From Cohnella sp. OV330 (GTDB lineage: Bacteria; Bacillota; Bacilli; Paenibacillales; Paenibacillaceae), in assembly GCF_900112065.1 (NCBI RefSeq), contig NZ_FOKE01000003.1:238052-302051 (forward strand): a DNA stretch of 64,000 nt, given 5' to 3'. Under the pieces are notes generated by a model, which saw nothing but the letters and a program-made list of their open reading frames with translations, was not told the DNA's origin and did no database searches. Below are positions 8,667 through 31,263 of the stretch, piece by piece. Each line of letters opens with the position of its first letter. Position 1 is the first letter of the stretch. The position numbers were made by a program, and so were the translations under genes.

Positions 8667-9467
8667 TTAAAATGCACCCCGAATCAAACCGCCGTCCACC
8701 CGAATCGTCGCGCCGCTGATATATTCAGCATATTCGCTTGCCAGGTACGCCACGGCAGATGCAATCTCGTCAGGATAGCCGAACCGTTCCCTGTCATTAG
8801 GAATGAGCGAATTCACGGCGTTCGGCATTATTTCTTCCCAAGTTTCTCCCCAGCCCCGGGAAGGACCGATGTGTTCGACCAGATCCTTAACTGCCTCTAC
8901 GAGAATCGCTCCCGGGGAGACGATGTTGGAGGTAATGCGAGTCCCCTTCAGCTCGCGAGCCAAGGAGACCGCCAGATTGTGTCGAGCCGCCAGGGTCGCA
9001 TTGTACTGAGGGTGCGTATTCATGGGTTGAAGCGCGAGACCTCCCCCGATCGTAATGACACGCCCCCAATTGCGTTCGCGCATTTGCGGAACCAGGCGTT
9101 GAATCATCCGGACACCCGATACTACGTTGATATTATACGTCTCCGCCCATTCGTCCGCCGATGCATCCGTCCAAGACAAGTGACGATAGAATCCAGCGTT
9201 GTTGACCAAAATGTCTACAGGGCCGCCTGCCAGCGCAGCCGATGCAACCGCGTCCGCACCTGAATCCGTGGATAGATCGCCCAATGCGACAACTGCATGG
9301 CCTCCATCTGCACGAATGGATTCGGCTACAGCATTTGTACGAGCCTCGTCGCGGCCGTGTACAATTACTTCGGCGCCTTCCGAAGCGAGCAATCTAATCG
9401 TAGCCGCTCCCAGTCCGTTGCTAGATCCAGTAACAAGTGCACGTTTACCCTTGAGTTTCAAATCCAT
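8667..9467 (-). CDS. SDR-family oxidoreductase lacking the usual catalytic Lys
   Basis: 266 residues with a classical SDR nucleotide-binding signature (TGSSNGLG at 13-20), NNAG at 89-92 and a C-terminal DGGLIRGAF. In the active-site segment Tyr155 is present (QYNATLAARHNL), but the Lys expected four residues on is Leu159, and the catalytic Ser position falls in ITIGGGLAL with no Ser. It therefore resembles an SDR subgroup with a modified active site; NAD(P) binding seems intact. A near-consensus promoter reads towards it from 9531. The substrate is unknown. Confidence 0.85.
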   Translation of the reverse strand: MDLKLKGKRALVTGSSNGLGAATIRLLASEGAEVIVHGRDEARTNAVAESIRADGGHAVVALGDLSTDSGADAVASAALAGGPVDILVNNAGFYRHLSWTDASADEWAETYNINVVSGVRMIQRLVPQMRERNWGRVITIGGGLALQPMNTHPQYNATLAARHNLAVSLARELKGTRITSNIVSPGAILVEAVKDLVEHIGPSRGWGETWEEIMPNAVNSLIPNDRERFGYPDEIASAVAYLASEYAEYISGATIRVDGGLIRGAF

Positions 9468-9502
9468 AACCTGGCACCACGCTTTCGAATCAGAATAAAC
9501 AC

Positions 9503-9531
9503 ATCATAGCATGGTTTTTATACAAAGTAAA
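9503..9531 (-). promoter_or_regulatory. SigA-type promoter for the SDR gene
   Basis: On the minus strand TTTACT and TATGAT are separated by 17 bp (forward positions 9526-9531 and 9503-9508), about 35 bp before the SDR start. The surrounding AT-rich, partly palindromic sequence may hold an operator. Confidence 0.55.
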
Positions 9532-9612
9532 CAAAATCAATAAAAAGTGTCTATATTGTACATTTTGTTTGTGCATAATAAAATTCGCTCATGTCATGGA
9601 CAACGGCCTCTC

Positions 9613-11919
9613 TCAGGGCGTCGTGCCGTAAACCTGCAGCTCGACGAATTGATTGTACGGGTCGGTATGGCTCCCGCCGATCCAGAACCTCGCGTACCTC
9701 GCCAATATCGGCTGAAAGTTGACGGTTTTCCCGCTGGCGCCCTCTGTGTATTCTGCGTCCACGCCATAGCCTTGGCCGGCGCTGTTATCCTTATCGTTAT
9801 TGAATACGGTCGTTACGTAGCTGCTGAAGTCTGCGGTCTGGGACAGTTGGACGATAACGTCCTTGTACGTTCTCCCCAAGAAGTGCCACATCTTCACTTT
9901 GCTGACATCGTAGAGAGCGCCCAGATCGATTTGCGCATAGACTTTCTCATAGGCATCGCCTACGCCGACATAGTAAGTCGTAGCGCCATCCGTCACTGTC
10001 GACGGCGAGGTCTCGTAGATTACATAGCTGCTGCTGTACGATGGCGTTCGGCCTGCCGATAGATTGGAGGGAGCTGCCGCCCCTTGCTGAATGGCGCCGA
10101 TGCTCGGGGTCGTCGAATGCCACGGCTTGCCGTAGAAGTCGACGAAGCCGCTGCCTAGCGCTGCCGCATAAGCATTCGTGCCGGACGCTTTAATAAGCGA
10201 GCTGGCGCTTAACCGGAAGTCGCGGTTGGCATAGTCGACGAATCCCGGGTCATTTACTTTTACGTTCGCATCGCACGTGTCCGGCGTCGTATTCGGACAT
10301 GCGTTAAGCCCGTTGATGTCATACAGGACGGATCTTGAAGGATCCTTGAAGCGAGCGACGTTCGAGCTGGAATCCCAGAATGCGTTGTTATTCAAGTATA
10401 GCGTACCCGTCACTGCGTCCGAGACATCGAGCGCGACTTCCCCAATCGCCCCATTCGGGTTGTCGTTGTAGCCATACTGTCCGAAAATATTATTGGCGAT
10501 CACATTATTCGTCACGTTGCTTGGAGCGGCATTGTAGTCTGTCACCTGTATGGAAAAGTGGTCGGTATTGAGAAACGTATTGTTTACGATATACAGGTCT
10601 CGGGCTTCCATCGATCCCCAGGGAGCGATGTCGAGCGCGTAAGGCTGTTGGCTGTGTAGAGGTTGAGGAGTCAGTTTCACCCCCGCAAAAATATTGCTGT
10701 AAAAATGGTTGTCGCTTCCTCCGGCATGACTCACGCTCGTGAAATCATGAAAGTAGTTCCGTCTGACAATATTGTCGGTGGTCTCGCCGGGAAGCCCGTA
10801 AACGCCGAAGGCGTGCATGTAACCGGAATCGCCTGCCGAAACGTCGTTTTGCTCGACAATGACATGGTGGACGCCATGATAGCTCGTCGACACAGTGGAG
10901 GCTAGCTCTATGCCGCTGTGACCGAAATTAACGATTTTATTGCCGCGTATAAGTCCATCCTCTACCGCATCGTGCATATAGATCCCGTCTCCGTATAACT
11001 GGATAGCCGGATCGTTCTCATACGTCGTCCACACCTTGTCGATCACATTGTTCGTAATCGTTATATTTGAAACGTGCGCGCTGAAGTTGGCGAGGTTGTT
11101 CGTGCCGCTGTTATAAACCCGGATGCCGGTCTGATTGGATTGCCGGATCGTATTGTTATCGATTGCGATATGTGCGCTCGGCGAATCCACGCTGACGACG
11201 CCGCCTTTGATGTCGAGGTTTTGAATCGTCACATATTCCGTATTTCCCATCGAGACGGGCGCCGTGTTAGAGGCAAGTATCATCTCTACGTTTTTCGGTC
11301 CGACCGAAGAAGAACCGGAATTGGCATAGACCCAACCGGTCGTGGGATTGATGTACCACTCGTAGGTCTGATCGACATGCGTCTCGTTCGCGCCCGAATT
11401 GGTCGTAGTGACCAAGTATTTGGAAACGCCGTTTACGAACAAACGCAAAGCGTAGGTATTGATAGGCACCGCGTGCTTCCAACGGTTGCTGCTACCGTCG
11501 TAGATCCAACCCGCGTCGTCCAAGAGGTGTGTAGTCGCAATCATCGGCTTCGCTCCGCTGCCATACGCCCCGATCGTGATGGGGTTGGCACTGGTCCCTT
11601 TTCTACCGTAAAGAATGAGAGGGCCTCCGATATTCGCTCCGGTGCCGTTTACACTGTTCGAATACCAAGCGTCCCCGCGTTTGAAAAGCACGGTATTCCC
11701 TGCCGACATCAGCGCGTTCGCGGCTGAGATGGATTGTTTCGGCGTCGAGGCGGACGTCCCGTTATTGGCATCGTTTCCATTCGTAGAAAAATAATAGGTC
11801 GTTCCGGCTGCCGAGACAAGTTTCGGCTGTGGCACGGCAATAGAACCTAATCCGCTGGCCAGCAGCAGGAAAGCAAGACAAACCGACCTCCATCTTAAAA
11901 CGCTACGAGCAGTAAACAT
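9613..11919 (-). CDS. Secreted right-handed beta-helix protein with C-terminal discoidin-like domain
   Basis: 768 residues from the ATG at 11919, chosen for GGGAGGAG seven bases upstream and because it gives a clean signal peptide (CLAFLLLASGLGSIAV..VSAAG). The body opens with a DUF1565-like TYYFSTNGNDANNGTSASTPKQSI and then repeats Asn-rich beta-helix turns (ITNNVIDKV, IEQNDVSAG, IVNNTFLNT, NNVIANNIF), a fold shared by polysaccharide lyases and some hydrolases. The last 140 residues resemble an F5/8-type carbohydrate-binding domain (YAQIDLGALYDVSKVKMW). Likely an extracellular polysaccharide-active or binding protein; catalytic residues cannot be assigned. It is monocistronic. Confidence 0.8.
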   Translation of the reverse strand: MFTARSVLRWRSVCLAFLLLASGLGSIAVPQPKLVSAAGTTYYFSTNGNDANNGTSASTPKQSISAANALMSAGNTVLFKRGDAWYSNSVNGTGANIGGPLILYGRKGTSANPITIGAYGSGAKPMIATTHLLDDAGWIYDGSSNRWKHAVPINTYALRLFVNGVSKYLVTTTNSGANETHVDQTYEWYINPTTGWVYANSGSSSVGPKNVEMILASNTAPVSMGNTEYVTIQNLDIKGGVVSVDSPSAHIAIDNNTIRQSNQTGIRVYNSGTNNLANFSAHVSNITITNNVIDKVWTTYENDPAIQLYGDGIYMHDAVEDGLIRGNKIVNFGHSGIELASTVSTSYHGVHHVIVEQNDVSAGDSGYMHAFGVYGLPGETTDNIVRRNYFHDFTSVSHAGGSDNHFYSNIFAGVKLTPQPLHSQQPYALDIAPWGSMEARDLYIVNNTFLNTDHFSIQVTDYNAAPSNVTNNVIANNIFGQYGYNDNPNGAIGEVALDVSDAVTGTLYLNNNAFWDSSSNVARFKDPSRSVLYDINGLNACPNTTPDTCDANVKVNDPGFVDYANRDFRLSASSLIKASGTNAYAAALGSGFVDFYGKPWHSTTPSIGAIQQGAAAPSNLSAGRTPSYSSSYVIYETSPSTVTDGATTYYVGVGDAYEKVYAQIDLGALYDVSKVKMWHFLGRTYKDVIVQLSQTADFSSYVTTVFNNDKDNSAGQGYGVDAEYTEGASGKTVNFQPILARYARFWIGGSHTDPYNQFVELQVYGTTP

Positions 11920-17834: not shown

Positions 17835-17995
17835 GAAGCAAAGCCCCTTTCGAACAAACGCCCAGTAGAACAAGTTTAGCACGCCGGCAGCCATCTGTAT
17901 TGTGCATTGGCGATCTTTGTCTGGTTCTTTTCCATGAAATGAGACTGCATGTTAGGTATTAGGATGGATATGCGTGTCGTAATCCAAATTAGTGC

Positions 17996-18023
17996 TTGAA
18001 ATCCATCGGATATGTGTTATATT
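17996..18023 (+). promoter_or_regulatory. Promoter of the first riboswitch unit
   Basis: TTGAAA (17996-18001) and TATATT (18018-18023) are spaced by 16 bp and lie about 70 bp upstream of the riboswitch aptamer. Nothing else on the plus strand between 17895 and this promoter was recognised. Confidence 0.6.
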
Positions 18024-18092
18024 AACTAACATAAAAGTTTGAATCGCTTTATTTCTTGTCAGATAACCTGTTAAATCCAACTGCATACGAAT

Positions 18093-18225
18093 TGTTTTCT
18101 AGGGTTCCGCGGCAGCTTTCATGCCGGTCTGGTCCGAGAGAAGACGCACGGCATAGCGGCCGTGTCCACGGAGGGATAAAAGCCCGGGAGGATATATTAC
18201 ATATCTTCCCGCGGCTTTTATTTTT
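18093..18225 (+). promoter_or_regulatory. Guanidine-I (ykkC) riboswitch with terminator platform
   Basis: The conserved ykkC blocks appear in order: TCTAGGGTTCCG (18098), CTGGTCCGAGAG (18129), then CACGGAGGGATAAAAGCCCG and GGGAGGAT. An overlapping terminator follows: AAAAGCCCGGGAGGATAT (18178-18195) pairs with ATATCTTCCC-CGGCTTTT and runs into a T-rich tract. Known mechanism: guanidine binding stabilises the aptamer and prevents terminator formation, turning the gene on. The downstream gene is an APC permease, and a second copy of the motif drives guanidine-degrading enzymes, which supports the guanidine class rather than the ppGpp or PRPP variants. Confidence 0.93.
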
Positions 18226-18258
18226 TTGTTTTTTGAGACAGGGAAGGGGAGCTAAGGG

Positions 18259-19602
18259 ATGAAACAAGAGGTTACGCTACGCCAAACGCTTACGCTGGTT
18301 CAAGTTGTCGCGCTGGGTTTGGCCTGGATGACGCCGATGATTTACTTCTCCGTGTTCGGCATCGCGTACGACGCGTCGAAGGGAATGATCACCGAAGCTT
18401 ACTCGCTGTCGGTCGTGGCGATTTTCTTCACGGCATACAGCTACAGCATCATGGCGAAAGTTTTCCCCGGCTCCGGCTCGTCGTACACGTACGTGAAGAA
18501 GTCGATGCACCCGATTCCGGGCTTCACGGTCGGCTGGGCGATCCTGCTGGACTATCTGTTCTCGCCGATCATCGCATGCCTGACGTTCGGTATCTACCTG
18601 CACGCCCAGTTCCCGGCCGTTCCGGCCTTTGTCTGGATCATTCTGCTCAACATCGTGCTGGCCGTCGTCAATATCGCGGGCATCCAGTTTTCCGCCAGCC
18701 TCAGCAAGCTGTTCGTCTTGTTCCAGATCATATTCATCGCTCTGTTCTGCGCCTACTTGATCAAGGGCTTCCATGGGTTCGAGGGCGCCGCGCAGCCCTT
18801 CGCGAACCTCGATGTCGGCCTGCCGACCATCCTTGCGGGCGCCTCGATCATCTGCTTTTCCTTCCTTGGCTTCGATACGGTGTCGACCTTGGCGGAGGAA
18901 ACCATACAACCCAAGAAAACGATCCCCCGGGCGATTATGCTCATCATTCTGATCGCCAGCGTGCTCTACGTGGTTACTTCGTACCTCATCCAGGTCTCGT
19001 ATCCGCATCTGACGTTCGTCAACCTGGATTCCGCCGGCTTCGAGCTGATGAAGATGGCGGGCGGGGCGACGCTGGGCGCGATTTTCACGACCGTCCTGAT
19101 CTTCGCGATCTTCACGCAGGGGCTGACGTCGGTGACGAGCGTCTCCCGGCTGCTGTACGTGCTCGGACGCGATTCGATATTGCCCAAAGGCTTTTTCGGC
19201 AAGATTCATCCGAAGTACCGGACGCCGGTGAACAATATCGTGCTGGTCACCATCGTCTCGCTGCTGGCCCTGGTGATCAGCCTCGATATGGCCGTGAAAT
19301 TCGTCAGCTTCGGCGCATTGACCTCGTTCGCCTTTGTCAATCTATCTGTCATCGCGGAGTGCTATATCAAGCGCAGACAGCGGTCTTTGAAGCAGACGTT
19401 CCAGTACTTGATCTTCCCGCTGGCCGGCGCTTCGTTCATCGTGTGGCTGATCACGCTGCTGGACGCGAACGCGCTGACGCTCGGCTGCATCTGGCTTGCG
19501 GCGGGCCTGGCCTATTATCTGTTCCGCACCAGAAAGTCGCGCTCGTTCAGCGCTTCGGCGAACCTGTTCGAGGGCGCGCCTGCCGCGATCAAAAGCGAAT
19601 AA
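18259..19602 (+). CDS. APC-superfamily permease under guanidine riboswitch control
   Basis: 447 residues, about 12 transmembrane helices. The APC signature is clear: TLVQVVALGLAWMTPM in helix 1, FPGSGSSYTYVKKSM, ICFSFLGFDTVSTLAEET in helix 6 and GRDSILPKGFFGKIHPKYRTP after helix 8. It starts at the ATG of 18259 with AAGGGGAG upstream. Family members import amino acids or polyamines. Here the upstream guanidine-I riboswitch and the neighbouring guanidine-carboxylase operon suggest that it imports guanidine or a guanidino compound; that substrate is inferred. It is monocistronic, the next operon having its own promoter and riboswitch. Confidence 0.9.
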   Translation: MKQEVTLRQTLTLVQVVALGLAWMTPMIYFSVFGIAYDASKGMITEAYSLSVVAIFFTAYSYSIMAKVFPGSGSSYTYVKKSMHPIPGFTVGWAILLDYLFSPIIACLTFGIYLHAQFPAVPAFVWIILLNIVLAVVNIAGIQFSASLSKLFVLFQIIFIALFCAYLIKGFHGFEGAAQPFANLDVGLPTILAGASIICFSFLGFDTVSTLAEETIQPKKTIPRAIMLIILIASVLYVVTSYLIQVSYPHLTFVNLDSAGFELMKMAGGATLGAIFTTVLIFAIFTQGLTSVTSVSRLLYVLGRDSILPKGFFGKIHPKYRTPVNNIVLVTIVSLLALVISLDMAVKFVSFGALTSFAFVNLSVIAECYIKRRQRSLKQTFQYLIFPLAGASFIVWLITLLDANALTLGCIWLAAGLAYYLFRTRKSRSFSASANLFEGAPAAIKSE

Positions 19603-19620
19603 ATAATTATGTTATGTATA

Positions 19621-19650
19621 TTGACATCGAACGGCGAACGGATTTATACT
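19621..19650 (+). promoter_or_regulatory. Promoter of the guanidine-carboxylase operon
   Basis: Consensus TTGACA (19621-19626) and TATACT (19645-19650) with an 18-bp spacer, about 75 bp before the second riboswitch. Confidence 0.7.
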
Positions 19651-19720
19651 AACCGCATGTTAGAAAACGTGACAATTAAATCAAGGTTCTTGCAAGCAGC
19701 ACATCGTCAAGAACGAAAAA

Positions 19721-19885
19721 GCGGTCTAGGGTTCCGTTGATGCTTCTCGCATCAAGACTGGTCCAAGAGACGGCGTATGGCGGCGCGGCCGGCGCAGATC
19801 GAGCAGATCATGCGGATCGGCAGGGCGATCCGCCATATGACACGGAAGGATAAAAGCCTGGGAGATGACTCTCCCGGGCTTTTTG
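19721..19885 (+). promoter_or_regulatory. Second guanidine-I (ykkC) riboswitch with terminator platform
   Basis: TCTAGGGTTCCG (19725), CTGGTCCAAGAG (19760) and ACACGGAAGGATAAAAGCC (19840) reproduce the ykkC consensus. The last block overlaps a terminator, AAAGCCTGGGAG / CTCCCGGGCTTT, followed by TTTGT (19853-19884). Compared with the copy at 18093 the stem between the second and third blocks is about 50 nt longer and GC-rich. It precedes the two DUF1989 genes, the carboxylase and the allophanate hydrolase, the classical regulon of this riboswitch. Confidence 0.93.
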
Positions 19886-19942
19886 TCGTTCGGACGACGC
19901 ATCGCTAACCATCGAATTCAGCGGGAAAGAGAGAGGATCAGG

Positions 19943-20647
19943 ATGTTGAACACCGTTATCGGCGCAGGGGGGAAATGGTCGGGCCGCATCGGCCGCGGCA
20001 AGCTGCTTCGCTTCACGGCACTCGAGGCGGGGGCGAACTTGTCGATGATGCTTTTTCACGCGCACGATCTGACCGAGCGCTACAACATGCCGGATACGTT
20101 GAAGGCCCAATATACGGCGCATCTGACGACGGGGCACACGCTCATGAGCGACAACGGCCGGGTGCTTGCCAGCATCGTGCAAGACGACCTCGGCTGGCAC
20201 GATCCGATGGGCGGCTATACGACGAGGACGCTTACGGACGAACGGTACGGCCGCACGACCTACCAGGCGCTGCGCAACGATTGGCTGCGCAGCGGGCAGG
20301 AAAACTTCGCGGTCGAGCTGACCCGCCACGGTATGGGCATGCGGGACATGATGCCGGTCGTCAACCTGTTTTCCAAAGTGTACTGCGACGAGAACGGCGC
20401 GATGCACTACGCGAAGGACCACTGCCCGGCTGGATCGTCGGTGACGCTTCGCACGGAGATGGACGTCATTCTGGTACTGTCGAATACGCCGAATCCGCTG
20501 GACGGGCGCGCGTCTTACCCTTCGGTTCCCGTAAGGCTGGAAGTAACGCAAGCGGAGCCGGTTCGCGAGGACGACGTCTGCGTCAACCACCGCGGCGAGA
20601 ACCGCCGCGCTTTCGAGAATACATGGACCTATTATTCGCTTATCTAG
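19943..20647 (+). CDS. DUF1989 protein UAAP1, carboxyguanidine deiminase subunit
   Basis: 234 residues from the ATG at 19943 (GAGAGAGGA upstream); the frame stays open upstream through the riboswitch terminator, so earlier starts are unlikely. It matches urea-amidolyase-associated protein 1: GRGKLLRFTALEAGANLSMMLFHAHDLTERYNMPDTLKAQ, LTTGHTLMSDNGRVLASI and CYDENG-like SKVYCDENG. Published work on guanidine carboxylase operons shows that the two DUF1989 proteins form carboxyguanidine deiminase (CgdAB), which turns carboxyguanidine into allophanate plus ammonia. The next gene is its partner, 23 bp on. Which subunit letter applies is not asserted. Confidence 0.88.
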   Translation: MLNTVIGAGGKWSGRIGRGKLLRFTALEAGANLSMMLFHAHDLTERYNMPDTLKAQYTAHLTTGHTLMSDNGRVLASIVQDDLGWHDPMGGYTTRTLTDERYGRTTYQALRNDWLRSGQENFAVELTRHGMGMRDMMPVVNLFSKVYCDENGAMHYAKDHCPAGSSVTLRTEMDVILVLSNTPNPLDGRASYPSVPVRLEVTQAEPVREDDVCVNHRGENRRAFENTWTYYSLI

Positions 20648-20670
20648 TCTAGCAACGGGAGGTAAAAGAT

Positions 20671-21321
20671 ATGGGCGCGTTTCACCGAGTCGAGAGTCCG
20701 CGCAAGCCGGAGCAGGCGGTCTATGACGACATCATTCTGGCCGGAGACGGATGGATGCGCGATCTGGAGCCCGGACAGGTGCTGCGGATCGTCGATCTGG
20801 AAGGCAACCAAGCCGCGGACACGCTGTTTTACGATGCCGATCATCCGGAGGATCATTATGCGGCGGCCGCGACGATCGCCAGGCAGGGCAATATTTACCT
20901 CACGACGGGATCGGTCCTGGTAGCGGAGTCCGGGAAGGCGCTGCTCACGATCGTCGCCGACACCTGCGGCAGGCATGACACATTAGGCGGCTCCTGCTCG
21001 GCGCAGAGCAACACCGTCCGCTACGCGCACGAGAAGGAACACATGCATAATTGCCGCGACACGTTCATGCTCCAGCTGGCCAAGCGGGGCGGCGACTACG
21101 GCAAGCGGGATCTCGCGCCGAACATCAACTTTTTCATGAACGTACCGGTCACGCCCCAAGGGGGGCTGAAGTTCGACGACGGCGTCTCGTCGCCGGGGGC
21201 TTACGTGGAGCTGCAGTCCCACGGCCGGACGACGGCGCTCATCAGCAACTGCCCGCAATTGAACAATCCGTGCAACGCCTACAATCCGACGCCGATCCGC
21301 GTCCTGATCTGGAACGAGTAA
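20671..21321 (+). CDS. DUF1989 protein UAAP2, carboxyguanidine deiminase subunit
   Basis: 216 residues with GGGAGGT ahead of the ATG. UAAP2 features: [40 protein letters not shown], a His/Cys-rich [23 protein letters not shown] and [18 protein letters not shown]. The conserved Cys and His residues are candidates for a metal site. It is homologous to the gene before it and, as its partner, forms the deiminase that follows guanidine carboxylation. The carboxylase starts 47 bp downstream in the same operon. Confidence 0.9.
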
Positions 21322-21368
21322 CGACGAGCGAACATCAAGAGCCTTGAGGGAAAAAGGAGAGGAACGCC

Positions 21369-24300
21369 ATGTTCACCAAAGTACTGATCGCCAACCGGGG
21401 CGCGATCGCCGTCCGGATCGAGCGCACGCTGCGCAAGCTGGGAATCGCGTCCGTCGCCGTCTACACGACCGCCGATCAAGATAGCCTGCACGTCGATCTC
21501 GCCGACGAAGCGGTGCTGATCGGGGACGGTCCCGCCAAGGAAAGCTACCTGAACGCGGAGCTCATCCTCCGCATCGCAAAGGAGCGCCGCGTTGACGCGA
21601 TCCACCCGGGGTACGGCTTCCTGAGCGAAAATGCCGACTTCGCCCGGGCCTGCCAGGAGAGCGGCATCGTTTTCATCGGACCATCGCCGGCGCAGATGGA
21701 GGCTTTCGGGCTGAAGCATTCAGCCCGGGAGCTCGCGATGAAGGCGAATGTGCCGCTCCTGCCAGGCACGCCGCTCATCACTGAGCCGGACGAAGCGATC
21801 GTGCATGCGGATGCCATCGGCTATCCGGTCATCTTGAAGAGCACCGCCGGCGGAGGCGGCATCGGCATGCGCGTCTGCGCGGACGAAGAGGCGCTGCGCG
21901 CGGCGTTCGACAGCGTGCGCCGCCTGGCGGAGACGAACTTCAAGAACGGCGGCGTGTTCCTGGAAAAGTATATCGCCAAGGCGCGCCATGTCGAGGTTCA
22001 AATCTTCGGCAACCGGTTCGGCGAAGTCGTCGCGCTCGGCGAGCGCGATTGCTCGGTGCAGCGCCGCAACCAGAAGGTCGTCGAAGAGAGCCCGGCGCCG
22101 AGCTTCCCGGCCGACGTTAGAGCCGAGATGCTCGCCAGCGCGCGGCGGTTGGCGGCCGAAGCCGGCTACCGGAGCGCCGGCACCGTCGAATTCCTGTACG
22201 ATCCGGCCAGCCTCCGCTTTTATTTCCTCGAGGTCAACACGCGCCTTCAGGTCGAGCACGGCGTCACCGAAGAGGTGCTCGGCATCGATCTCGTCGAATG
22301 GATGATCCGCGAGGCGGCCGACGAGCTGCAAGGCCTGGAGACGCTGTTCGCGGAGCCGGCCGGTCACAGCATTCAAGCGCGCGTCTACGCCGAAGACTGC
22401 CTGCAGCAGTTCCGACCGAGCGCGGGACAGCTCGATCAAGTGCGCCTCTCCGAGCGCGCGCGCAACGAGACGTGGGTGCGTGACGGCATCACGGTGACGA
22501 CGTTGTACGATCCGATGCTCGCCAAGGTCATCGTGCACGGGACGGACCGCGCCGATGCGATCGCGAAGCTGAAGCGGGCGCTATCGGAGACGCGCTTCTA
22601 CGGCATTACGACGAACCTGCAGTACGTCGAGGCGCTGCTGGACGAACCGGCCTTCGCGGACGGCGACGTGTTCACGCAGTTGCTCGGCGACTTCGCCCCG
22701 AGCGAGTCGGCGATCGAAGTGCTGGACGGCGGCGTGCAGACGACCGTGCAGGATTGGCCGGGCCGCGTCGGCTACTGGGATGTCGGCGTGCCGCCTTGCG
22801 GGCCGATGGACCCGCTCGCCTTCCGCACGGGAAACGCGCTGCTCGGCAACCCCGAGGACGCGAGCGGCCTCGAGCTGACGCTGCGAGGCGGCGCTTATAA
22901 GTTCCGCGAAGGCATGTGGCTGTGCATCACCGGCGCGAACATGAATCCGGCGCTCGACGATGCGCCGGTCCCGATGTACGAGCCGGTGCGGGCGGAGCGC
23001 GGGCAGGTGCTGTCCTTCGGCGAAGCGGGCGAAGGCCTTCGCGCCTACCTGCTCGTCGCCGGCGGCTTCGATATGCCGCTTACGCTGGGCAGCGCGTCGA
23101 CCTTCACGCTCGGCGGCTTCGGCGGACACGGCGGCCGCGCGCTGCGGGCCGGCGACGTGCTGAACGTGCGCCGGGGAGGCAACGCGTGCCAGCCGCAAGG
23201 CGGGCTGCCCGAAGCGTATCGCCCCGCGATCGCGCGGGAATGGACGATCGGCGTCATCCCCGGTCCGCACTGCACGGGCGAGTTCCTGCAGCCGGAATAT
23301 TTGCGGCAGCTCGCGGACACGCGCTTCGAAGTCCACTTCAACAGCTCCCGCACGGGCGTCCGGCTCGTCGGTCCGGCGCCGCTCTGGGCGCGCGAGGACG
23401 GGGGAGAGGCGGGGCTGCATCCGTCTAATATTCACGACAACGCTTATGCGATCGGCACGCTCGACCTGACCGGCGACATGCCGATTCTGCTCGGCCCGGA
23501 CGGACCGAGTCTCGGCGGCTTCGTCTGTCCCGTGACGACCGCATCGGCGGAGTTCTGGAAGCTCGGCCAGCTGCATGCCGGAGACGCGGTCCGCTTTCGC
23601 CTCGTCACGCTGGAGCAGGCGGAGGAAATGCGGCGCGTCCAGGAGGCGCAGCTTCAGGCGATCGCAGGCGGCGCTCGCGAAGCGCTGCCGGTCGCGGCGC
23701 CGTCGCGGGACGTCGTCGCGTTCACGCCCGAATATCCGATCCTGCACAGCGAGTCCGAGGGGCGGAACTTCAGGATGACGATCCGCTGCAGCGGCGACGA
23801 GAACCTGCTGGTCGAATACGGCTCGCTCGAGCTCGATCTGCTGCTGCGCTTCCAGGTGCACGCGCTGATCGAAGCCATTCGCGCGCAGGACGGCATGCCC
23901 GTGCTCGACCTGACGCCGGGCGTTCGATCCGTGCAGGTGCGCATCGATCCGAAGCGCACGACGGTCGGCCGCGTAGCGAAGCAGCTGCTGGAGCTGGACG
24001 CCGCGCTGCCGCCGCTCGCCTCCATTCAGGTGCCGTCCCGCATCGTCCGCCTGCCGCTGTCCTGGGACGATCCGGCGACGCAGCTCGCGATCGACCGTTA
24101 CCAGCAGAACGTTCGCCCGGACGCCCCGTGGTGTCCGAGCAACCTGGAGTTCATCCGCAGGGTGAACGGGCTGGGCAGCATCGACGACGTGCAGCGCATC
24201 GTGTTCGACGCCAGTTATCTCGTGCTCGGCCTCGGCGACGTGTATCTGGGCGCGCCGCTCGCCACGCCGCTCGATCCGCGGCACAGGCTCGTGACGACCA

Positions 24301-25010
24301 AGTACAATCCGGCCCGCACCTGGACGCCGGAAAACGCGGTCGGCATCGGCGGCGCCTACATGTGCGTCTACGGGATGGAAGGGCCGGGCGGATACCAATT
24401 CGTCGGCCGCACGATCCAGATGTGGAACAAGCTGCGCACGACGGCCAGCTTCGTGTCCGGCAAGCCTTGGCTGCTCCGGTTTTTCGACCAGATCCAGTTC
24501 TACCCGGTCAGCGCCGAGGAGCTGCTCGTCCTGCGGGAGGACTTCCTCCGCGGCCGCTTCGAGGCGGACATCACCGAGACGACGTTCGATCTGGGCGAGT
24601 ATCTGCAGTTCCTTTCTTCGATAGAAGAGAGCGCCGGGCTGTTCCGCGCGCAGCAGCAGCAGGCGTTCCGCGAGGAACGCGAGGACTGGAAGGCGCGGGG
24701 GCTGGCGGAATACGTGTCCGAACAAGAGCCGAGCAAGGCCGCAAGCGACGACGAGCTGCCGGACGAGGTCGACGCGATCCGCTGCTCGATGCCGGGCAGC
24801 ATGTGGAAGGTGCAGGTGTCGCCGGGAGAGCGGGTGCGGAAGGGCGATACGCTGTTCATCGTCGAGTCGATGAAAATGGAGTTTTCCCAGAACGCGCCGT
24901 TCGACGGCATCGTTCATTCGGTTCACGCGAAGCCGGGGGATACGGTGCACGCCGGGCAACTGGTCGTCGGCATCGCCAAGTCGGAGGAGAAGGAGCTGGC
25001 GGCCGTATGA
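21369..25010 (+). CDS. Biotin-dependent guanidine/urea carboxylase
   Basis: 1213 residues, full length for a stand-alone urea carboxylase. The N-terminal biotin carboxylase domain (about 1-450) has HPGYGFLSENADFA, the ATP-grasp loop STAGGGGIGMRV and EVNTRLQVEH. The carboxyltransferase follows as a KipA-like (about 460-780) and a KipI-like (about 800-1010) half with KYNPARTWTPENAVGIGGAY and GMEGPGGYQFVGRTIQMW. A biotinyl domain ends the protein, with biotin-lysine in VESMKMEF (Lys1169). It uses ATP and bicarbonate to carboxylate urea or guanidine. The riboswitch and the two DUF1989 partners point to guanidine; the discriminating Asp/Asn in the carboxyltransferase must be checked by alignment. 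Confidence 0.92.
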   Translation: MFTKVLIANRGAIAVRIERTLRKLGIASVAVYTTADQDSLHVDLADEAVLIGDGPAKESYLNAELILRIAKERRVDAIHPGYGFLSENADFARACQESGIVFIGPSPAQMEAFGLKHSARELAMKANVPLLPGTPLITEPDEAIVHADAIGYPVILKSTAGGGGIGMRVCADEEALRAAFDSVRRLAETNFKNGGVFLEKYIAKARHVEVQIFGNRFGEVVALGERDCSVQRRNQKVVEESPAPSFPADVRAEMLASARRLAAEAGYRSAGTVEFLYDPASLRFYFLEVNTRLQVEHGVTEEVLGIDLVEWMIREAADELQGLETLFAEPAGHSIQARVYAEDCLQQFRPSAGQLDQVRLSERARNETWVRDGITVTTLYDPMLAKVIVHGTDRADAIAKLKRALSETRFYGITTNLQYVEALLDEPAFADGDVFTQLLGDFAPSESAIEVLDGGVQTTVQDWPGRVGYWDVGVPPCGPMDPLAFRTGNALLGNPEDASGLELTLRGGAYKFREGMWLCITGANMNPALDDAPVPMYEPVRAERGQVLSFGEAGEGLRAYLLVAGGFDMPLTLGSASTFTLGGFGGHGGRALRAGDVLNVRRGGNACQPQGGLPEAYRPAIAREWTIGVIPGPHCTGEFLQPEYLRQLADTRFEVHFNSSRTGVRLVGPAPLWAREDGGEAGLHPSNIHDNAYAIGTLDLTGDMPILLGPDGPSLGGFVCPVTTASAEFWKLGQLHAGDAVRFRLVTLEQAEEMRRVQEAQLQAIAGGAREALPVAAPSRDVVAFTPEYPILHSESEGRNFRMTIRCSGDENLLVEYGSLELDLLLRFQVHALIEAIRAQDGMPVLDLTPGVRSVQVRIDPKRTTVGRVAKQLLELDAALPPLASIQVPSRIVRLPLSWDDPATQLAIDRYQQNVRPDAPWCPSNLEFIRRVNGLGSIDDVQRIVFDASYLVLGLGDVYLGAPLATPLDPRHRLVTTKYNPARTWTPENAVGIGGAYMCVYGMEGPGGYQFVGRTIQMWNKLRTTASFVSGKPWLLRFFDQIQFYPVSAEELLVLREDFLRGRFEADITETTFDLGEYLQFLSSIEESAGLFRAQQQQAFREEREDWKARGLAEYVSEQEPSKAASDDELPDEVDAIRCSMPGSMWKVQVSPGERVRKGDTLFIVESMKMEFSQNAPFDGIVHSVHAKPGDTVHAGQLVVGIAKSEEKELAAV

Positions 25011-26869
25011 GCGACACTGCGTTCGAATTCGCGGATCGACTGACGGTGGACTGGTTAAAAACGCAATACGCGAGCGGCCGGTTGACGCCGCGCGAAGCGG
25101 TGCTCGAGATCGTGCGGCGCGCCGAAGCGGATCGGGACATGAACATCTGGATCAGTCCGCCGACCCTGGCGGCGATCGAGCCTTACCTTGCGCGGCTCGG
25201 CGAGCTGGATCCGAAGCGGGCGCCGCTGTGGGGCATTCCGTTCGCCGTCAAGGACAACATCGACGTGGCGCACGTGCCGACGACGTCCGGCTGCGCGGAC
25301 TATGCGTACGTGCCGTCCGCGCATGCGACGGTCGTGCGGCGGTTGGTCGAGGCGGGCGCCATCCCCGTCGGCAAGACGAACCTCGACCAGTTCGCGACCG
25401 GACTGGTCGGCATGCGCAGCCCATACGGCGAGGCGCATAACGCGCTGCGGCCGGAGCTGATCAGCGGCGGCTCGAGCTCCGGCTCTGCGGTGGCGGTGGC
25501 CCGGGGCCAGGCGGTCTTCGCGCTCGGCACCGATACGGCCGGTTCGGGCCGCGTGCCCGCGGCGTTGAACGGGCTCGTCGGCTGGAAGCCGAGCGTCGGC
25601 GCGTGGCCGGCGGACGGGATGGTGCCGGCCTGCGAGAGCCTGGACTGCATTACCGTTTTCGCCCATCGGCTTGACGATGCCGATCTGGTCGACCGGACCG
25701 TTCGCGGCCTGGCGCCGGACGACCCCTGGTCGAAAGACATCTCGCGCCGGCAGGGCTCGGAGCGAAGTCTCCCTGCCAGGGTTTATCTCCCAAGCGATCC
25801 GCCGGCGTTCTACGGTCCGTTCGCCGAAGGCTATCGTCTCGCCTGGGAGCGCGCCAAAGCGCAGCTCGAGCAGCTCGGCGTCGCGGTCGAATACGCGGAC
25901 ATGGCGTTGTTCGAAGAGGCCGCCGCGCTCTTATACGAAGGGCCGTGGGTCGCCGAACGTTGGGCGGCGCTCGGCGAATTCGTCGAGTCGCATCCGGGCA
26001 GCGCGTTTCCCGTGACGGAGCGGATTCTGCGGACGGGCGCAGATCCGGCGCACCATGCCGCGGACCTGTTCAAAGCGCAGCATCGGCTGCAGGCATTGAA
26101 GCGAAAGGCGCAGCAGCTGCTATCGGACGGTGCGCTCGTCCTGCCGACGGCCGGCGGGACCTGGACGCGCGACGAAGCAAGGCAAGAGCCGATCGCGACG
26201 AATCGCGCCATGGGACTGTACACGAACCATTGCAATCTGCTCGACCTGTGCACCGTTGCCGTCCCCGCCGGACTCGCGGGCGAGCGGCTTCCGTTCGGCA
26301 TTACGCTGTTCGCGTTGTCCGGACAGGAGGATCTGCTGGTCGGGCTTGCGGATCTGTATGGAGACGGTCGATCGCATGCCCAAGCGCAGACTGCGCCGGA
26401 ACTTCAATCTGAAACGCGGCGTGAGCCAATGTTGGCGTCGGCGACTCAACCGATTTCGCAGCCGACCGCCGAGTCCGCGACGCTCGTCGCCGTCTGCGGC
26501 CTTCATATGCGGGGCTTCCCGCTGGAAGCGCAGATGAAGGCGCACGGCTCGACGTTTATCCGCGAAGCGCATACGGCCGCCAAGTACAAGCTGGTGAGGC
26601 TGCCCACGCAGCCGGCCAAGCCGGGCCTGCTGAAGCAAACGGCCGGCGGCGCCGCCATCGCGCTCGAGCTGTGGGAGATGCCGCTCGACCGTTTCGGATC
26701 CTTCGCGGCGGCGATACCGGCACCGCTCGGGATCGGCAAGGTGGAGCTGTCCGACGGGACCGAGGTGCCCGGCTTCATCTGCGAAGGCTGGGCGGAGCGG
26801 GAAGCCGCGGACATTACGGCATTCGGAGGCTGGCGGTCGGCGATGCTGAGCGAGGTCTCGGCCAAGTAG
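25007..26869 (+). CDS. atzF: Allophanate hydrolase
   Basis: 620 residues; the ATG overlaps the carboxylase stop (ATGA), so the two are translationally coupled. The amidase-signature domain has the Ser-cisSer-Lys triad: Lys82 in FAVKDNID, Ser156 in SGGSSSGSAVAV and Ser180 in DTAGSGRVPA. The C-terminal 120 residues (from LVAVCGLHMRGFPLEAQM) are the typical AtzF C-terminal domain, which removes the second carboxylate. The enzyme turns allophanate into two CO2 and two ammonia and completes guanidine breakdown. The product is cytosolic; this is the last gene of the operon. Confidence 0.93.
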   Translation: MSDTAFEFADRLTVDWLKTQYASGRLTPREAVLEIVRRAEADRDMNIWISPPTLAAIEPYLARLGELDPKRAPLWGIPFAVKDNIDVAHVPTTSGCADYAYVPSAHATVVRRLVEAGAIPVGKTNLDQFATGLVGMRSPYGEAHNALRPELISGGSSSGSAVAVARGQAVFALGTDTAGSGRVPAALNGLVGWKPSVGAWPADGMVPACESLDCITVFAHRLDDADLVDRTVRGLAPDDPWSKDISRRQGSERSLPARVYLPSDPPAFYGPFAEGYRLAWERAKAQLEQLGVAVEYADMALFEEAAALLYEGPWVAERWAALGEFVESHPGSAFPVTERILRTGADPAHHAADLFKAQHRLQALKRKAQQLLSDGALVLPTAGGTWTRDEARQEPIATNRAMGLYTNHCNLLDLCTVAVPAGLAGERLPFGITLFALSGQEDLLVGLADLYGDGRSHAQAQTAPELQSETRREPMLASATQPISQPTAESATLVAVCGLHMRGFPLEAQMKAHGSTFIREAHTAAKYKLVRLPTQPAKPGLLKQTAGGAAIALELWEMPLDRFGSFAAAIPAPLGIGKVELSDGTEVPGFICEGWAEREAADITAFGGWRSAMLSEVSAK

Positions 26870-26950: not shown

Positions 26951-27278
26951 TTGACATCCCGGTATGCGCCAGGTAAGATTTACTTTACTGGATATGAACG
27001 GAGGGGTTACGTGTGTTGAACTAATTCTTCGATACGCTAGCGCAAATGAATCAAGCCTCGACTAAGGCTTTTTTGCGTGCATCGTAATCGAAGAATGGTT
27101 TGCCTTCACGGAACCCAGCATCGTCTATTTGCGATGGAGATAGAGAGCCGCTCAGGTCTCTCTACCTCTGGGCCGCATTAGACTGGATTTGAGTGAATTC
27201 AAATCCTTTTTTCGATTACAGGATGCACAGGCCCGAGGCCTGTGTTTTTTATTTTTAAAATGCGATGGAGGATTCTCT
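26951..27278 (+). promoter_or_regulatory. Promoter and long hairpin-rich leader before the alpha/beta hydrolase
   Basis: A near-consensus promoter (TTGACA 26951-26956, 17-bp spacer, TAAGAT 26974-26979) starts a leader of nearly 300 nt with no convincing ORF. It contains a 10-bp stem, ATTCTTCGAT / ATCGAAGAAT (27024-27033, 27087-27096), enclosing a small terminator-like hairpin AAGCCT / AGGCTT plus T-run (27053-27074). Two further hairpins with T-tracts follow: GGATTTGA / TCAAATCC (27185-27212) and ACAGGCC / GGCCTGT (27227-27256). Some may terminate upstream transcription, but their number and the outer stem suggest an RNA regulator or small RNA. I recognise no known riboswitch class. Confidence 0.5.
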
Positions 27279-28133
27279 ATGAACGAACGATTGATCCAAA
27301 CGGACGGCATCCAAATATGCGCAGAAAGCTTCGGAGACCCGCGTGACCCCGCCCTTTTGCTAATTATGGGCGCTCAATCCTCGTTGATCTGGTGGGAAGA
27401 GCCGTTTTGCCGGCGTTTAGCCGAGGGCGGCCGGTTCGTCATTCGTTACGATAATCGCGATGTCGGTCGCTCGACGACTTATGAGCCGGGAAACCCGGAT
27501 TATACGTTCGAGGATATGGCGGACGATGCGATTCGCGTATTGGATGCTTATCAAATCGAGCAAGCCCACATCGTGGGAATGTCCATGGGAGGCATGTTGG
27601 CCCAAATGATCGCGCTGCGGCATCCGCGAAGAACGACGTCCCTCACCCTCGTATCCACGTCTAATTTTGCCGAGCATCTCCCCCCGATGGAAGAAGAGGT
27701 GATGGCGTTTTTCTCGAAAATGGGGACGATCGATTGGACGAGCCGACAGTCGGTAGCTGAATTTGCCGTACAAAGATCCAAAGTATTGGCAGGCTCCAAA
27801 CATTTTTTTGATCGGAAAAAAACGAGCATGCTGGCCGAACTGGAGTTTGCGAGAAGCGCCAATATGGCCAGTATGGGCAATCACGCCTTGTTGGCCGGCG
27901 GCGAATCGTACCTGGCCAGGACGAACGAGATCGGCGTACCCGCGCTGATCATTCACGGCACCGAAGATCCGATTATCCCCTATGAGCACGGAAAACATCT
28001 TGCCGACATTATTCCGGACGCTGTTTTGTTGGCTTTGGAAGGTACCGGGCATGAGCTTCCCGAGGGCGACTGGGACCAGGTCGTCCAAGCGATTTTGGCG
28101 CACACCGCTACAACGCCTTCTGACCGACGATAG
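27279..28133 (+). CDS. Alpha/beta-fold hydrolase
   Basis: 284 residues from the ATG at 27279 (GATGGAGG upstream). The fold is shown by LLIMGAQSSLIWWEEPFCRRL, RYDNRDVGRS, the nucleophile elbow GMSMGGMLAQ, an acid in HGTEDPIIP and the catalytic His in GTGHELPEGDW. It resembles the RdmC/enol-lactonase branch of cofactor-free esterases. The substrate cannot be inferred. It lies behind the hairpin-rich leader and ends at a terminator shared with an AraC gene. Confidence 0.88.
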   Translation: MNERLIQTDGIQICAESFGDPRDPALLLIMGAQSSLIWWEEPFCRRLAEGGRFVIRYDNRDVGRSTTYEPGNPDYTFEDMADDAIRVLDAYQIEQAHIVGMSMGGMLAQMIALRHPRRTTSLTLVSTSNFAEHLPPMEEEVMAFFSKMGTIDWTSRQSVAEFAVQRSKVLAGSKHFFDRKKTSMLAELEFARSANMASMGNHALLAGGESYLARTNEIGVPALIIHGTEDPIIPYEHGKHLADIIPDAVLLALEGTGHELPEGDWDQVVQAILAHTATTPSDRR

Positions 28134-29205: not shown

Positions 29206-31263
29206 ATGACGATGCAAGACACGATACAAGAAACGCCGCAGACCGCGACCTGGATCTGGTATCCGGGCGACTTCGAGATTCGGCTGCACGAAAAAATGTC
29301 CGTGAAACGGAGGACGCGCGGGGTTCCGTACCCGGCTTACTGGCGGCTGGACCGGCATTATTCGAATGTGAAGTTCCGGTACGTTTACGACCTGCCTCGC
29401 GAGGAGCAAGTCGCGATCAAGGCCGAAGGAGCCTTCTCCCTCTATCTAGACGGGAAGGACAACGACCGCACTGACGAGCCCGTCATCATGCTGCCGGCGG
29501 GCAAGCACGAGATCAGCGTCAGCGTCTTTAACGACGTCGAGATGCCCGCGCTGTACATCGAAGGCCCCAACATCCGGACGGATGCGTCCTGGGAGGCGAC
29601 CTCGTACCAGAACGACTGGGTACCGGCCGGAATGTGGACGTTCGATTCGCCGTCCGCCCCGCCGTCCGCCTTCCGCCTGGCGGTCGAGCCGCAGGAGCCG
29701 GCGTCAGCCGAAGAGGTTCAAGGGCATCCGCTGCTTGATTTCGGCCGCGAGACGTTCGGCTACTTGCGCTTCCACAATCTCCAAGGCACGGGCAAGGTCC
29801 GGATCTACTACGGCGAATCGAGGGCGGAGGCGCTCTCGACTGCGGAGTGCTACAGCGTGGACCGATTCGATGCCGGAGAAGCGGCGAGGCTGGCCGAAGA
29901 CGGCGTTTATACGCTGGGGGACGCGAAGGCCTTCCGTTATGCATGGATTCATGCCGACGCAGGCGTCAGCTGGGACCGCGTATCGATGCTGTACGAATAC
30001 GTGCCCGTCACCTATCGCAGCGCGTTCGCGTGCTCGGACCCGAAGCTGAACGAGATCTACGAGATGAGCCTCTACACGCTTCATCTGAACGCCAGGGAGT
30101 TTTTCCTCGACGGCATCAAGCGAGACCGCTGGGTCTGGTCGGGCGACGCCTACCAGGCGTTTCTGATGAACTACTACAGCTTCTTCGATCTGAACGTGAC
30201 GCGCCGGACGCTGATCGCGCTGCGCGGCAAGGATCCGCTGGTCATGCATTTCAACACCATTCTGGATTATTCGTTGTATTGGTTCGTATCGCTGTCCGAC
30301 TATTATTTGTACACGGGGGATATTGCGTTCATCCGGCAGTATTACGACCGGGCGGTGTCGCTGATGGACTTCTGCCTCGCGCAGCGCAATGAAGAAGGGT
30401 TGGTCGAGGGCAGGCAGCAGGATTGGGTATTCGTCGATTGGGCGGATCTGGACAACAGCGGCGCCGTCAGCACGATCCAGATCCTGCTCGCGCGCGGGCT
30501 CGAAGCGATGAGCGCTTTCGCCGCCGAGCTGGGCGATGCCGCCGCGTCTAAGACGTACCTGTCGCTTGCCGACGACCTCAAGGCCAAGACGCTGTGCCTG
30601 TTCTGGGACGAAGAGAGAGGCGGGCTGCTGCACCATCGCGTGGACGGCGCCACGCAGCCGATGCTGACGAAGCATGCCAACATGTTCGCAATGACCTTCG
30701 GCTATTTGAGTCCCGCGCAGCAAGAGCGCGTGATTCAAAGCGTGATGCTGAATCCGGACGTGCCGCGGATCCGGACGCCGTACATGCGGTTCCACGAGAT
30801 GGCGGCGCTGTGCGAGAGCAGGCAGCACGATTATGTCCTGCAGGAGGTTCGCGCTTACTGGGGCGGCATGATCGAGCTCGGCGCGACGACGTTCTGGGAG
30901 GAATACGACCCGTCTCTCGCGGACGACGCCCACTACGGCATGTACGGGGTAACGTTCGGAAAAAGCCTGTGCCATGCATGGGGAGCGGGTCCGATCTACT
31001 TGTTCGGGAAATACTTCCTCGGCGTCAAACCGCTTAGCGCGGGCTATGAGACTTTTGTCGTCGAGCCGCAGCTTGGCGGGCTGGCCTGGATGAAGGGGAC
31101 CGTCCCGAACTCCGCCGGCGAAGTCGAGGTGGACATGGACGCATCGCGCATCCGCGTCCGGGCGACCCACGGTCATGGGGTGCTGAGATTCACGAGGGAC
31201 GGCGAGACGGTCGAGGTGCCGATCCCGGCGGACGGCAGCTGGCTGGAAGCTAGCCTTCTTTAA
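29206..31263 (+). CDS. GH78-like alpha-L-rhamnosidase, intracellular
   Basis: 685 residues, no signal peptide. A beta-sandwich N-terminal region (to about 270) is followed by an (alpha/alpha)6 barrel with GH78 landmarks: REFFLDGIKRDRWVWSGDAYQAFLMNYYSFFD, the segment DWVFVDWADLD, RTPYMRFHEMAALCE, GATTFWEEYDPS and SLCHAWGAGPIYLFGKYFLGVKP. The acidic residues DGIKRDRWVWSGD and WEEYD fit the family's inverting active site. AAGGAG lies upstream of the ATG. It probably cleaves terminal rhamnose from imported oligosaccharides or glycosides. The divergent AraC is the likely regulator; no transporter is adjacent. Confidence 0.85.
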   Translation: MTMQDTIQETPQTATWIWYPGDFEIRLHEKMSVKRRTRGVPYPAYWRLDRHYSNVKFRYVYDLPREEQVAIKAEGAFSLYLDGKDNDRTDEPVIMLPAGKHEISVSVFNDVEMPALYIEGPNIRTDASWEATSYQNDWVPAGMWTFDSPSAPPSAFRLAVEPQEPASAEEVQGHPLLDFGRETFGYLRFHNLQGTGKVRIYYGESRAEALSTAECYSVDRFDAGEAARLAEDGVYTLGDAKAFRYAWIHADAGVSWDRVSMLYEYVPVTYRSAFACSDPKLNEIYEMSLYTLHLNAREFFLDGIKRDRWVWSGDAYQAFLMNYYSFFDLNVTRRTLIALRGKDPLVMHFNTILDYSLYWFVSLSDYYLYTGDIAFIRQYYDRAVSLMDFCLAQRNEEGLVEGRQQDWVFVDWADLDNSGAVSTIQILLARGLEAMSAFAAELGDAAASKTYLSLADDLKAKTLCLFWDEERGGLLHHRVDGATQPMLTKHANMFAMTFGYLSPAQQERVIQSVMLNPDVPRIRTPYMRFHEMAALCESRQHDYVLQEVRAYWGGMIELGATTFWEEYDPSLADDAHYGMYGVTFGKSLCHAWGAGPIYLFGKYFLGVKPLSAGYETFVVEPQLGGLAWMKGTVPNSAGEVEVDMDASRIRVRATHGHGVLRFTRDGETVEVPIPADGSWLEASLL

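Follow-up and report, generated by a model that had tools for sequence, protein, structure and literature searches.

Permeases of the APC family under Guanidine-I riboswitches have already been named predicted guanidine importers of nitrifying bacteria in the available portions of two reports (PMC11410670, PMC12186494), the first of which describes a riboswitch/APC permease/guanidinase unit in comammox Nitrospira and further permeases in ammonia-oxidizing bacteria. Carboxylase operons under Guanidine-I control are known from Raoultella, Klebsiella and V. boliviensis, where the accessible text places an ABC importer beside the enzymes and a Guanidine-II switch within the operon (PMC12186494, PMC12508155). 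Here we describe a related arrangement from the Paenibacillaceae genome of Cohnella sp. OV330 (GCF_900112065.1), in a stretch of 64,000 nucleotides (nt) of contig NZ_FOKE01000003.1 (238,052-302,051, forward strand), hereafter the window. Two riboswitch-led units at window positions 17996-26869 were confirmed at the sequence level as an APC permease unit and a complete guanidine carboxylase pathway. We consider it quite probable that together they constitute a nitrogen-scavenging guanidine regulon, in which a dedicated permease would import guanidine, the carboxylase route would degrade it, and GlnR/TnrA-type regulators and riboswitches would control both.

Rfam searches at gathering thresholds returned exactly two matches in the window, both to the Guanidine-I model (RF00442) over its full length (positions 1-107 of 107), with starts 1,627 nt apart (Table 1). 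The pair of riboswitches 1.6 kb apart that an initial annotation of this DNA had read as a guanidine-utilisation regulon therefore stands, positions included. A promoter and a terminator for each riboswitch, also part of that annotation, were recovered as well: hexamer pairs precede both aptamers, within a region (17900-20000) where three sigma-70-like sites were found against 1.6 expected and a consensus match alone is weak, and in both leaders the 5' arm of the terminator is the conserved 3' strand of the aptamer itself. Such shared arms are the layout of a ligand-ON transcription attenuator, with guanidine binding and switching predicted. In relatives, aptamers were located with a riboswitch model built in this analysis (R1) and a core pattern. 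In paired loci, the permease-side aptamers all have G-C at one P3 pair (56/56) and the 53 aptamers before CgdA all have A-U, a consistent difference that makes the two switches look like long-separated lineages rather than the products of a recent duplication. The same pair was considered as a target-specific aptamer signature and dropped, since in a wider set it follows lineage: the CgdA units of a divergent clade have G-C (9/9), and the pair varies in front of SMR and ABC genes.

All four enzymes of the second unit, including the paired DUF1989 proteins of UAAP1 and UAAP2 types, score above their own NCBIfam cut-offs. In the available text of Palatinszky et al. (PMC11410670), Asp at the positions equivalent to K. 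lactis 1330 and 1584 is the criterion for guanidine carboxylase, with 1330 separating it from urea carboxylase. In an HMMER comparison with 5i8i, the enzyme of K. lactis, Asp699 of the Cohnella carboxylase aligns with Asn1330 and Asp957 with Asp1584, such that both Asp are present and the urea-type Asn is absent from the specificity position. Both Asp were also found in 51/51 carboxylases read in L006-L066 and in all 20 carboxylases of other loci, ten of these being further permease loci. The initial annotation had assigned the enzymes to the guanidine carboxylase/carboxyguanidine deiminase route and had singled out Asn at this site as evidence to the contrary; the scores and the Asp residues bear out its assignment.

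The association between permease and guanidine genes is conserved well beyond the window. A peptide-pattern scan of genome contigs, covering one genome per species among close relatives, yielded 61 loci, from which L065 (23% identity) was set aside as not an ortholog. The remaining 60 orthologous permeases are 53-91% identical and derive from Paenibacillus, Cohnella, Ammoniphilus, Neobacillus, Bacillus, Mesobacillus, Rummeliibacillus and Terrilactibacillus. In 55 of these loci, and in the window, the permease is preceded by an aptamer at a distance of under 450 nt, and CgdA occurs within the fetched stretch in 54. For the other five, the aptamer is found on a divergent enzyme unit only (L038, L040), about 10 kb away (L041, L044) or 1.9 kb upstream (L046). 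Whole-genome Rfam searches identified RF00442 above cut-off in 36/36 tested permease genomes. Sampling of the window's GTDB family recovered the permease at no less than 54% in 56/295 genomes, one copy with in-frame stops. An even sample of the phylum gave 18 distant matches (<45%, 15 genomes; L102-L119), and model R1, at E up to 1, found no aptamer in the stretches fetched around them; Guanidine-I riboswitches as such are common in that sample, with 65 of 398 genomes above the cut-off. As a separate observation, L046 (Terrilactibacillus) carries at 7965-10001 a frame resembling, by eye, a group-II-intron reverse transcriptase between its Guanidine-I riboswitch and its permease.

Phylogenetic reconstruction groups the guanidine-linked permeases into a single clade of Bacillota. 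In a quick tree of 110 rows, the 71 permeases labelled guanidine-linked, of which 57 have a riboswitch of their own and 14 have one farther off or on a divergent enzyme unit, were recovered as a single clade with a Shimodaira-Hasegawa-like approximate likelihood-ratio test (SH-aLRT) value of 99, leaving PuuP, PlaP and 34 unlinked relatives outside. That tree had very distant outgroups. A second, more careful tree had 73 rows and took as its root two TIGR03428-type proteins, of which one scores below that model's cut-off. It omitted PotE, AdiC, GabP and some near-identical rows, with some long rows remaining, and united its 35 linked rows with bootstrap 100 and SH-aLRT 99, in 100% of 200 bootstrap trees, again leaving out PuuP/PlaP (100/99). 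A pseudogene (L038) was kept out of both. Neither CgdA, CgdB nor carboxylase was found beside any of the 34 unlinked relatives (fetched 7-19 kb), two of which (L108, L121) showed a weak amidase-type match to allophanate hydrolase. The single clade for which the initial annotation had suggested a test was recovered, and the closest characterised proteins found are putrescine importers outside the clade, not the amino-acid transporters that it had named as contrary evidence.

In terms of family, the Cohnella permease matches Pfam PF00324 (AA_permease) at 137.1 bits. Of the characterised proteins found, PuuP (41.9% identity) and PlaP (41.2%) of E. coli, over 422 columns, are closest to it; PotE, AdiC and GabP are 25-27% identical over 330-347 columns. 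PuuP- and PlaP-annotated proteins were also among the best 40 of 1,234 records in a plasmid-wide tblastn search. Scoring 46.8 bits against a cut-off of 740.45, the permease is not a member of TIGR03428, the urea-carboxylase-system permease. A fold search with its AlphaFold model (predicted local distance difference test score, pLDDT, 82.7) returned Z 41.3 to CAT4 and 39.2 to AdiC, with Z 39-41 across CAT4, ApcT, GkApcT and AdiC; it speaks to the APC fold only, and no absence is drawn from it. Five residues fixed in 71/71 clade permeases are unlike those of PuuP-like proteins (Trp23, Ile28, Ser102, Ala106, Gln287). Two of these, Ser102/Ala106, replace Leu/Ala and Asn of PuuP-like proteins close to Asp98, which the clade shares with PuuP (D109) and PlaP. 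In an alignment with AdiC, which at 27% identity serves as a lead only, permease residues 98/99 correspond to AdiC 96/97, which we take to lie next to the guanidinium of arginine, and the Gly-Ser-Gly motif of transmembrane helix 1 (TM1) of AdiC and PotE, presumably a carboxylate-binding element, is absent. Outside the clade, a sister permease of the same genus (L144 4903-8224, genome G457; 45%) has a MerR-type regulator as one neighbour and a gene of the agmatinase family as another, with no riboswitch nearby. Agmatinases and related amidinohydrolases ranked first when the latter was compared with solved ureohydrolases (6 sequences, E <= 1e-30), and the sister permease could have agmatine or guanidine as its substrate.

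Examination of the promoters revealed a second layer of putative control, which the initial annotation had missed. The GlnR/TnrA consensus is TGTNA-N7-TNACA in the available text of PMC6191146. Three exact matches occur in the 64 kb of the window, all at the two promoters of the regulon, compared with 0.21 expected and with 0/100 shuffles reaching three. Across the Cohnella genome (7.47 Mb), 38 exact sites were found, versus 14 for the reversed pattern. Among the 15 of these 38 sites whose neighbours were viewed, one lies 27 nt before an amt ammonium transporter gene and another 170 nt before a nirB-like frame that runs off the end of its locus. In the accessible parts of PMC6191146 and PMC3412718, GlnR-type targets include ammonium transport and nitrite reduction. 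The genome also encodes a GlnR homologue matching a B. subtilis sequence at 70% over 77 residues.

As the sites of the window had prompted the operator test, the remaining 109 of 111 aptamers served as the test set, with an exact site sought within 140 nt upstream of each. Window included, a site was present for 56/56 permease-side aptamers and for 55/55 enzyme-side aptamers of the A-U type, the class being set by the P3 pair; 53 of the latter lie directly before CgdA, the other two being L044 (locus edge) and L046 at 7965. Spacing between site and aptamer varied in relatives from -25 to -139. Sites were found in 15/474 and 28/636 GC-matched stretches of the same loci (3-4%), which may include true sites of a neighbouring unit, and in 0.4% of shuffles. 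Left out of these counts were a truncated aptamer (L041, also omitted from the pair counts), two whose 5' part was unrecognised by the pattern (L191, L192) and L098-L100, in which no core pattern was found. Divergent pairs had an intergenic site in 9/9 cases, seven with two sites, and four permeases lacking their own riboswitch had one within 400 nt (L038, L040, L041, L044; not L046 or L143).

Extension to other Guanidine-I units separated them by function. Sites were present at 17/17 Bacillota ABC importer units, 9/9 enzyme units of the divergent clade, 3/3 further permease units (L190 and L193 repeat L054 and L055) and three of four other enzyme units, the miss (L082) coming from a genome outside the class. 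None was found at 38 SMR exporter units (16 from genomes or clusters also holding the permease, 22 from the phylum sample; L188, with 112 nt upstream only, was left out), nor at five units of Proteobacteria, which are not known to have this regulator; one of six unclassified units had a site. The comparisons with Proteobacteria and Actinomycetota were drawn from plasmid records. The pattern holds within single genomes: a cluster with three riboswitches in Niallia taxi (L120) has sites at the permease and the enzymes and none at its SMR pair, and the Cohnella genome has one site before the permease, two before the enzymes and none before two tandem SMR genes (PF00893), likewise missed by the initial annotation, that follow its third Guanidine-I riboswitch (G000:C18:305473-305582, L003). 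Among riboswitch-linked units, the GlnR/TnrA-type site is thus a predicted mark telling assimilation from export, and since import units carry the site and SMR units do not, the permease is placed with import. One further riboswitch (L184, genome G015) has a site at -18 with no downstream gene recognised among the queries used.

A search for alternative uptake routes used a single ABC query, the guanidine-type binding protein of Enterococcus raffinosus (L128), at E <= 1e-20. No ABC guanidine-binding protein was detected with this one query in the Cohnella genome or in G001-G008, which leaves the APC permease as the only importer candidate found in this genome. Elsewhere, a binding protein at 45% or above was detected in 14/37 permease genomes, in two with in-frame stops, and in all 16 ABC loci fetched from these 14 genomes (two loci representing a weaker copy) an aptamer lies upstream. 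APC and ABC importers are, on this distribution, predicted alternatives or partners in guanidine transport. Two relatives are of note: Cohnella thermotolerans (L038, 10001-11332) has a permease with in-frame stops and without its own riboswitch in a genome with a riboswitch-linked ABC binding protein, and Paenibacillus cellulosilyticus (L127, 6017-8153) has the same enzyme unit in its ABC version, in which genes for a binding protein and an ABC permease separate CgdA from the riboswitch. In Actinomycetota, TIGR03428-type APC permeases stand beside CgdA and CgdB (Tsukamurella L200, 822 bits; Streptomyces L197, 646 bits), both without an Rfam match at the gathering threshold. APC permeases therefore seem to have joined the guanidine pathway more than once. 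At E <= 1e-100 TIGR03428 had no match in the 398-genome phylum sample nor in controls, from which its absence from Bacillota does not follow.

Several observations weigh against the proposed regulon. In the 14 genomes noted above, the permease coexists with a riboswitch-linked ABC binding protein, so the permease is not always the sole route. L143, which was labelled guanidine-linked and falls inside the clade, has neither riboswitch, enzymes (fetched 11.5 kb) nor GlnR-type site, and its genome has no RF00442 match. The linked loci are related to one another, so that counts are not independent, and a GlnR-type site within 300 nt of 8/34 unlinked permeases, three in the sister group (L145-L147), means that such a site does not by itself point to guanidine. 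Finally, the closest characterised kin of the permease carry putrescine. This kinship (41.9 and 41.2% identity to PuuP and PlaP) would suit a permease importing another guanidino compound or amine, such as methylguanidine, agmatine, guanylurea or putrescine, with free guanidine sensed as a breakdown product, as would the agmatinase-family gene near the 45% sister permease L144 and the handling of methylguanidine by the V. boliviensis guanidine operon (available text of PMC12508155). Nonetheless, the two units show no enzyme that would split guanidine off a larger molecule, the clade departs from PuuP-like proteins at Ser102 and Ala106 near the shared Asp98, and CgdA, of the free-guanidine pathway, recurs in 54/60 loci, which together make another substrate unlikely. 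That the permease exports guanidine, as a detoxification gene beside the pathway, we regard as very improbable. Among the 29 best-scoring other Guanidine-I loci of the phylum sample, 26 had the core pattern and 22 of these 26 an SMR gene downstream, and an importer induced by its own substrate implies positive feedback; yet operator sites mark 56/56 permease and 17/17 Bacillota ABC importer units as opposed to 0/38 SMR units, the Cohnella genome is already provided with an SMR pair under a separate riboswitch, PuuP and PlaP are annotated as putrescine:H+ symporters, and the one permease pseudogene seen (L038) sits in a genome with an ABC binding protein.

Conservation of the linkage across Paenibacillaceae and Bacillaceae, with the permease behind its own riboswitch in 55/60 loci, renders scarcely credible an ordinary amino-acid permease present by chance; the Pfam label AA_permease and the arginine transporters among the fold matches point in that direction, and the missing TM1 Gly-Ser-Gly of AdiC and PotE points away from it. 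It is also quite unlikely that the GlnR/TnrA-like sites are inert and that the riboswitch alone controls the regulon. The sites are consensus matches only, but exact matches at 111/111 aptamers, at spacings of -25 to -139, compare with rates of 0.4% in shuffled sequence and 3-4% in GC-matched stretches, and 38/38 SMR and 5/5 proteobacterial units are without them.

The nitrogen-scavenging regulon that we favour builds on genes, aptamers, terminators, operator sites, specificity residues, a clade and its linkage, each read directly from the sequences. Nitrogen shortage would open the promoters through GlnR/TnrA, by way of predicted operator occupancy, and the riboswitch would let the transcript through only with guanidine bound, so that the two controls would act in series on each of the two units. 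The PuuP/PlaP-like permease would then bring guanidinium in, most likely coupled to protons by homology, whereupon the carboxylase, the CgdA/CgdB deiminase and allophanate hydrolase would convert guanidine into CO2 and three ammonia. Excess guanidine may be exported by the separate riboswitch unit encoding the SMR pair, without nitrogen control. Because the site occurs at permease, enzyme and ABC importer units and at none of the 38 SMR units, assimilation seems to be controlled by nitrogen and guanidine, and detoxification by guanidine alone. With somewhat more caution, we lean towards a general form of this model, in which Bacillota Guanidine-I units would form two regulons, an operator-bearing assimilation AND gate and guanidine-only SMR export, the operator would sort importers from exporters, and the PuuP-like clade would be a dedicated guanidinium:proton importer whose recruitment was separate from that of the TIGR03428-type permeases of Actinomycetota.

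If this is correct, the operator offers a sequence test separating importers from exporters among riboswitch-linked transporters, and the clade represents a compact single-gene importer candidate in Paenibacillaceae and Bacillaceae. The operator pattern also suggests how one ligand might elicit opposite programmes (keep and eat, or expel) set by nitrogen state, which makes it directly testable whether guanidine acts as a nutrient or as a poison. What is new here is the occurrence of exact, predicted GlnR/TnrA sites at the Guanidine-I promoters of assimilation units. In the open-licence literature, we found no report that describes the PuuP-type clade of Bacillota or joint control by GlnR/TnrA and a guanidine riboswitch. 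T-box and guanidine switches with CodY, the subject of the available part of PMC12452182, are a different matter, and term counts on the accessible text of PMC3412718, on the GlnR regulon of Bacilli, gave no mention of guanidine, ykkC or urea carboxylase. PMC12625717, PMC9800807 and PMC12342949, the last of which lists CUQ66147.1 among its APC queries for Nitrospira, have in their available text no bearing on the importer described here.

Table 1. Features of the guanidine regulon of Cohnella sp. OV330, in window coordinates (aa, amino acids; bp, base pairs).
Feature	Position	Strand	Evidence
Promoter of permease unit, TTGAAA-N16-TATATT, TG before second hexamer	17996-18023	+	Consensus match only, 10/12
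GlnR/TnrA-type operator of permease promoter, exact 17-bp match, over -10 hexamer	18015-18031	+	Consensus
Guanidine-I aptamer 1 (permease unit)	18088-18192	+	RF00442 94.2 bits, cut-off 63
Riboswitch 1, stretch with intrinsic terminator that shares its 5' arm with the aptamer 3' part	18176-18231	+	-27.6 kcal/mol
APC permease, PuuP/PlaP-like, candidate guanidinium importer, 447 aa	18259-19602	+	Pfam, NCBIfam, identity, trees, APC fold
GlnR/TnrA-type operator I of enzyme promoter, overlaps -35 hexamer	19610-19626	+	Consensus
Promoter of enzyme unit, TTGACA-N18-TATACT	19621-19650	+	Consensus match only, 11/12
GlnR/TnrA-type operator II of enzyme promoter, just downstream of -10 hexamer	19658-19674	+	Consensus
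Guanidine-I aptamer 2 (enzyme unit), one hairpin enlarged	19715-19866	+	RF00442 76.9 bits, cut-off 63
Riboswitch 2, stretch with intrinsic terminator that shares its 5' arm with the aptamer	19849-19891	+	-25.9 kcal/mol
CgdA (UAAP1), DUF1989, carboxyguanidine deiminase subunit	19943-20647	+	TIGR03425 298.4 bits, cut-off 205.95
CgdB (UAAP2), DUF1989, carboxyguanidine deiminase subunit	20671-21321	+	TIGR03424 304.9 bits, cut-off 284.7
Guanidine carboxylase, 1213 aa, Asp699 and Asp957	21369-25010	+	TIGR02712 1715 bits, cut-off 1303.85
Allophanate hydrolase AtzF	25007-26869	+	TIGR02713 636.5 bits, cut-off 511.05 (scanned as 24989-26869)

The ATG start of AtzF, read from the sequence, overlaps the carboxylase stop. 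Downstream of the regulon, an alpha/beta hydrolase gene (27189-28133, plus strand; likely start 27281 by eye) matches the macrolide esterase model NF052610 at 444.4 bits (cut-off 420), and its long leader contains hairpins followed by T runs at 27020-27260, by eye; leaders of this kind are the layout of drug-inducible attenuated resistance genes. Also near the regulon is an alpha-L-rhamnosidase-like glycoside hydrolase (29206-31263, plus strand; Pfam).

Taken as a whole, the initial reading of this locus is partly supported; its view of an APC permease as a less familiar partner of the guanidine enzymes gives way to the importers proposed for nitrifiers in the available text of PMC11410670 and PMC12186494, and to the presence of TIGR03428 in NCBIfam. 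As in the nitrifier units of PMC11410670, so far as its available text goes, the same riboswitch stands directly before an APC permease with guanidine-degrading genes adjoining, and the Cohnella locus differs in phylum, in its carboxylase route, in its second riboswitch and in its GlnR/TnrA-type sites. It has the enzymes and Guanidine-I control of the Raoultella, Klebsiella and V. boliviensis operons, with an APC permease where the accessible parts of PMC12186494 and PMC12508155 describe an ABC importer and an internal Guanidine-II switch, the latter also seen here in L129, L131 and L132. With PuuP and PlaP the permease shares the overall family, the Asp equivalent to PuuP D109 and 42/41% identity, but it belongs to a separate, guanidine-linked clade with different fixed residues at positions 23, 28, 102, 106 and 287. 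TIGR03428 permeases (Tsukamurella; Streptomyces below cut-off) are likewise APC permeases beside CgdA and CgdB, yet the Cohnella permease is only 21% identical to them and has a riboswitch. Finally, two GlnR sites flank the nif promoter of Paenibacillus polymyxa in the available text of PMC6191146, as at 19610-19674 of the window; there, Cohnella adds a leader riboswitch, and its site I overlaps the -35 hexamer, whereas the P. polymyxa site is found 58 bp ahead of that element.

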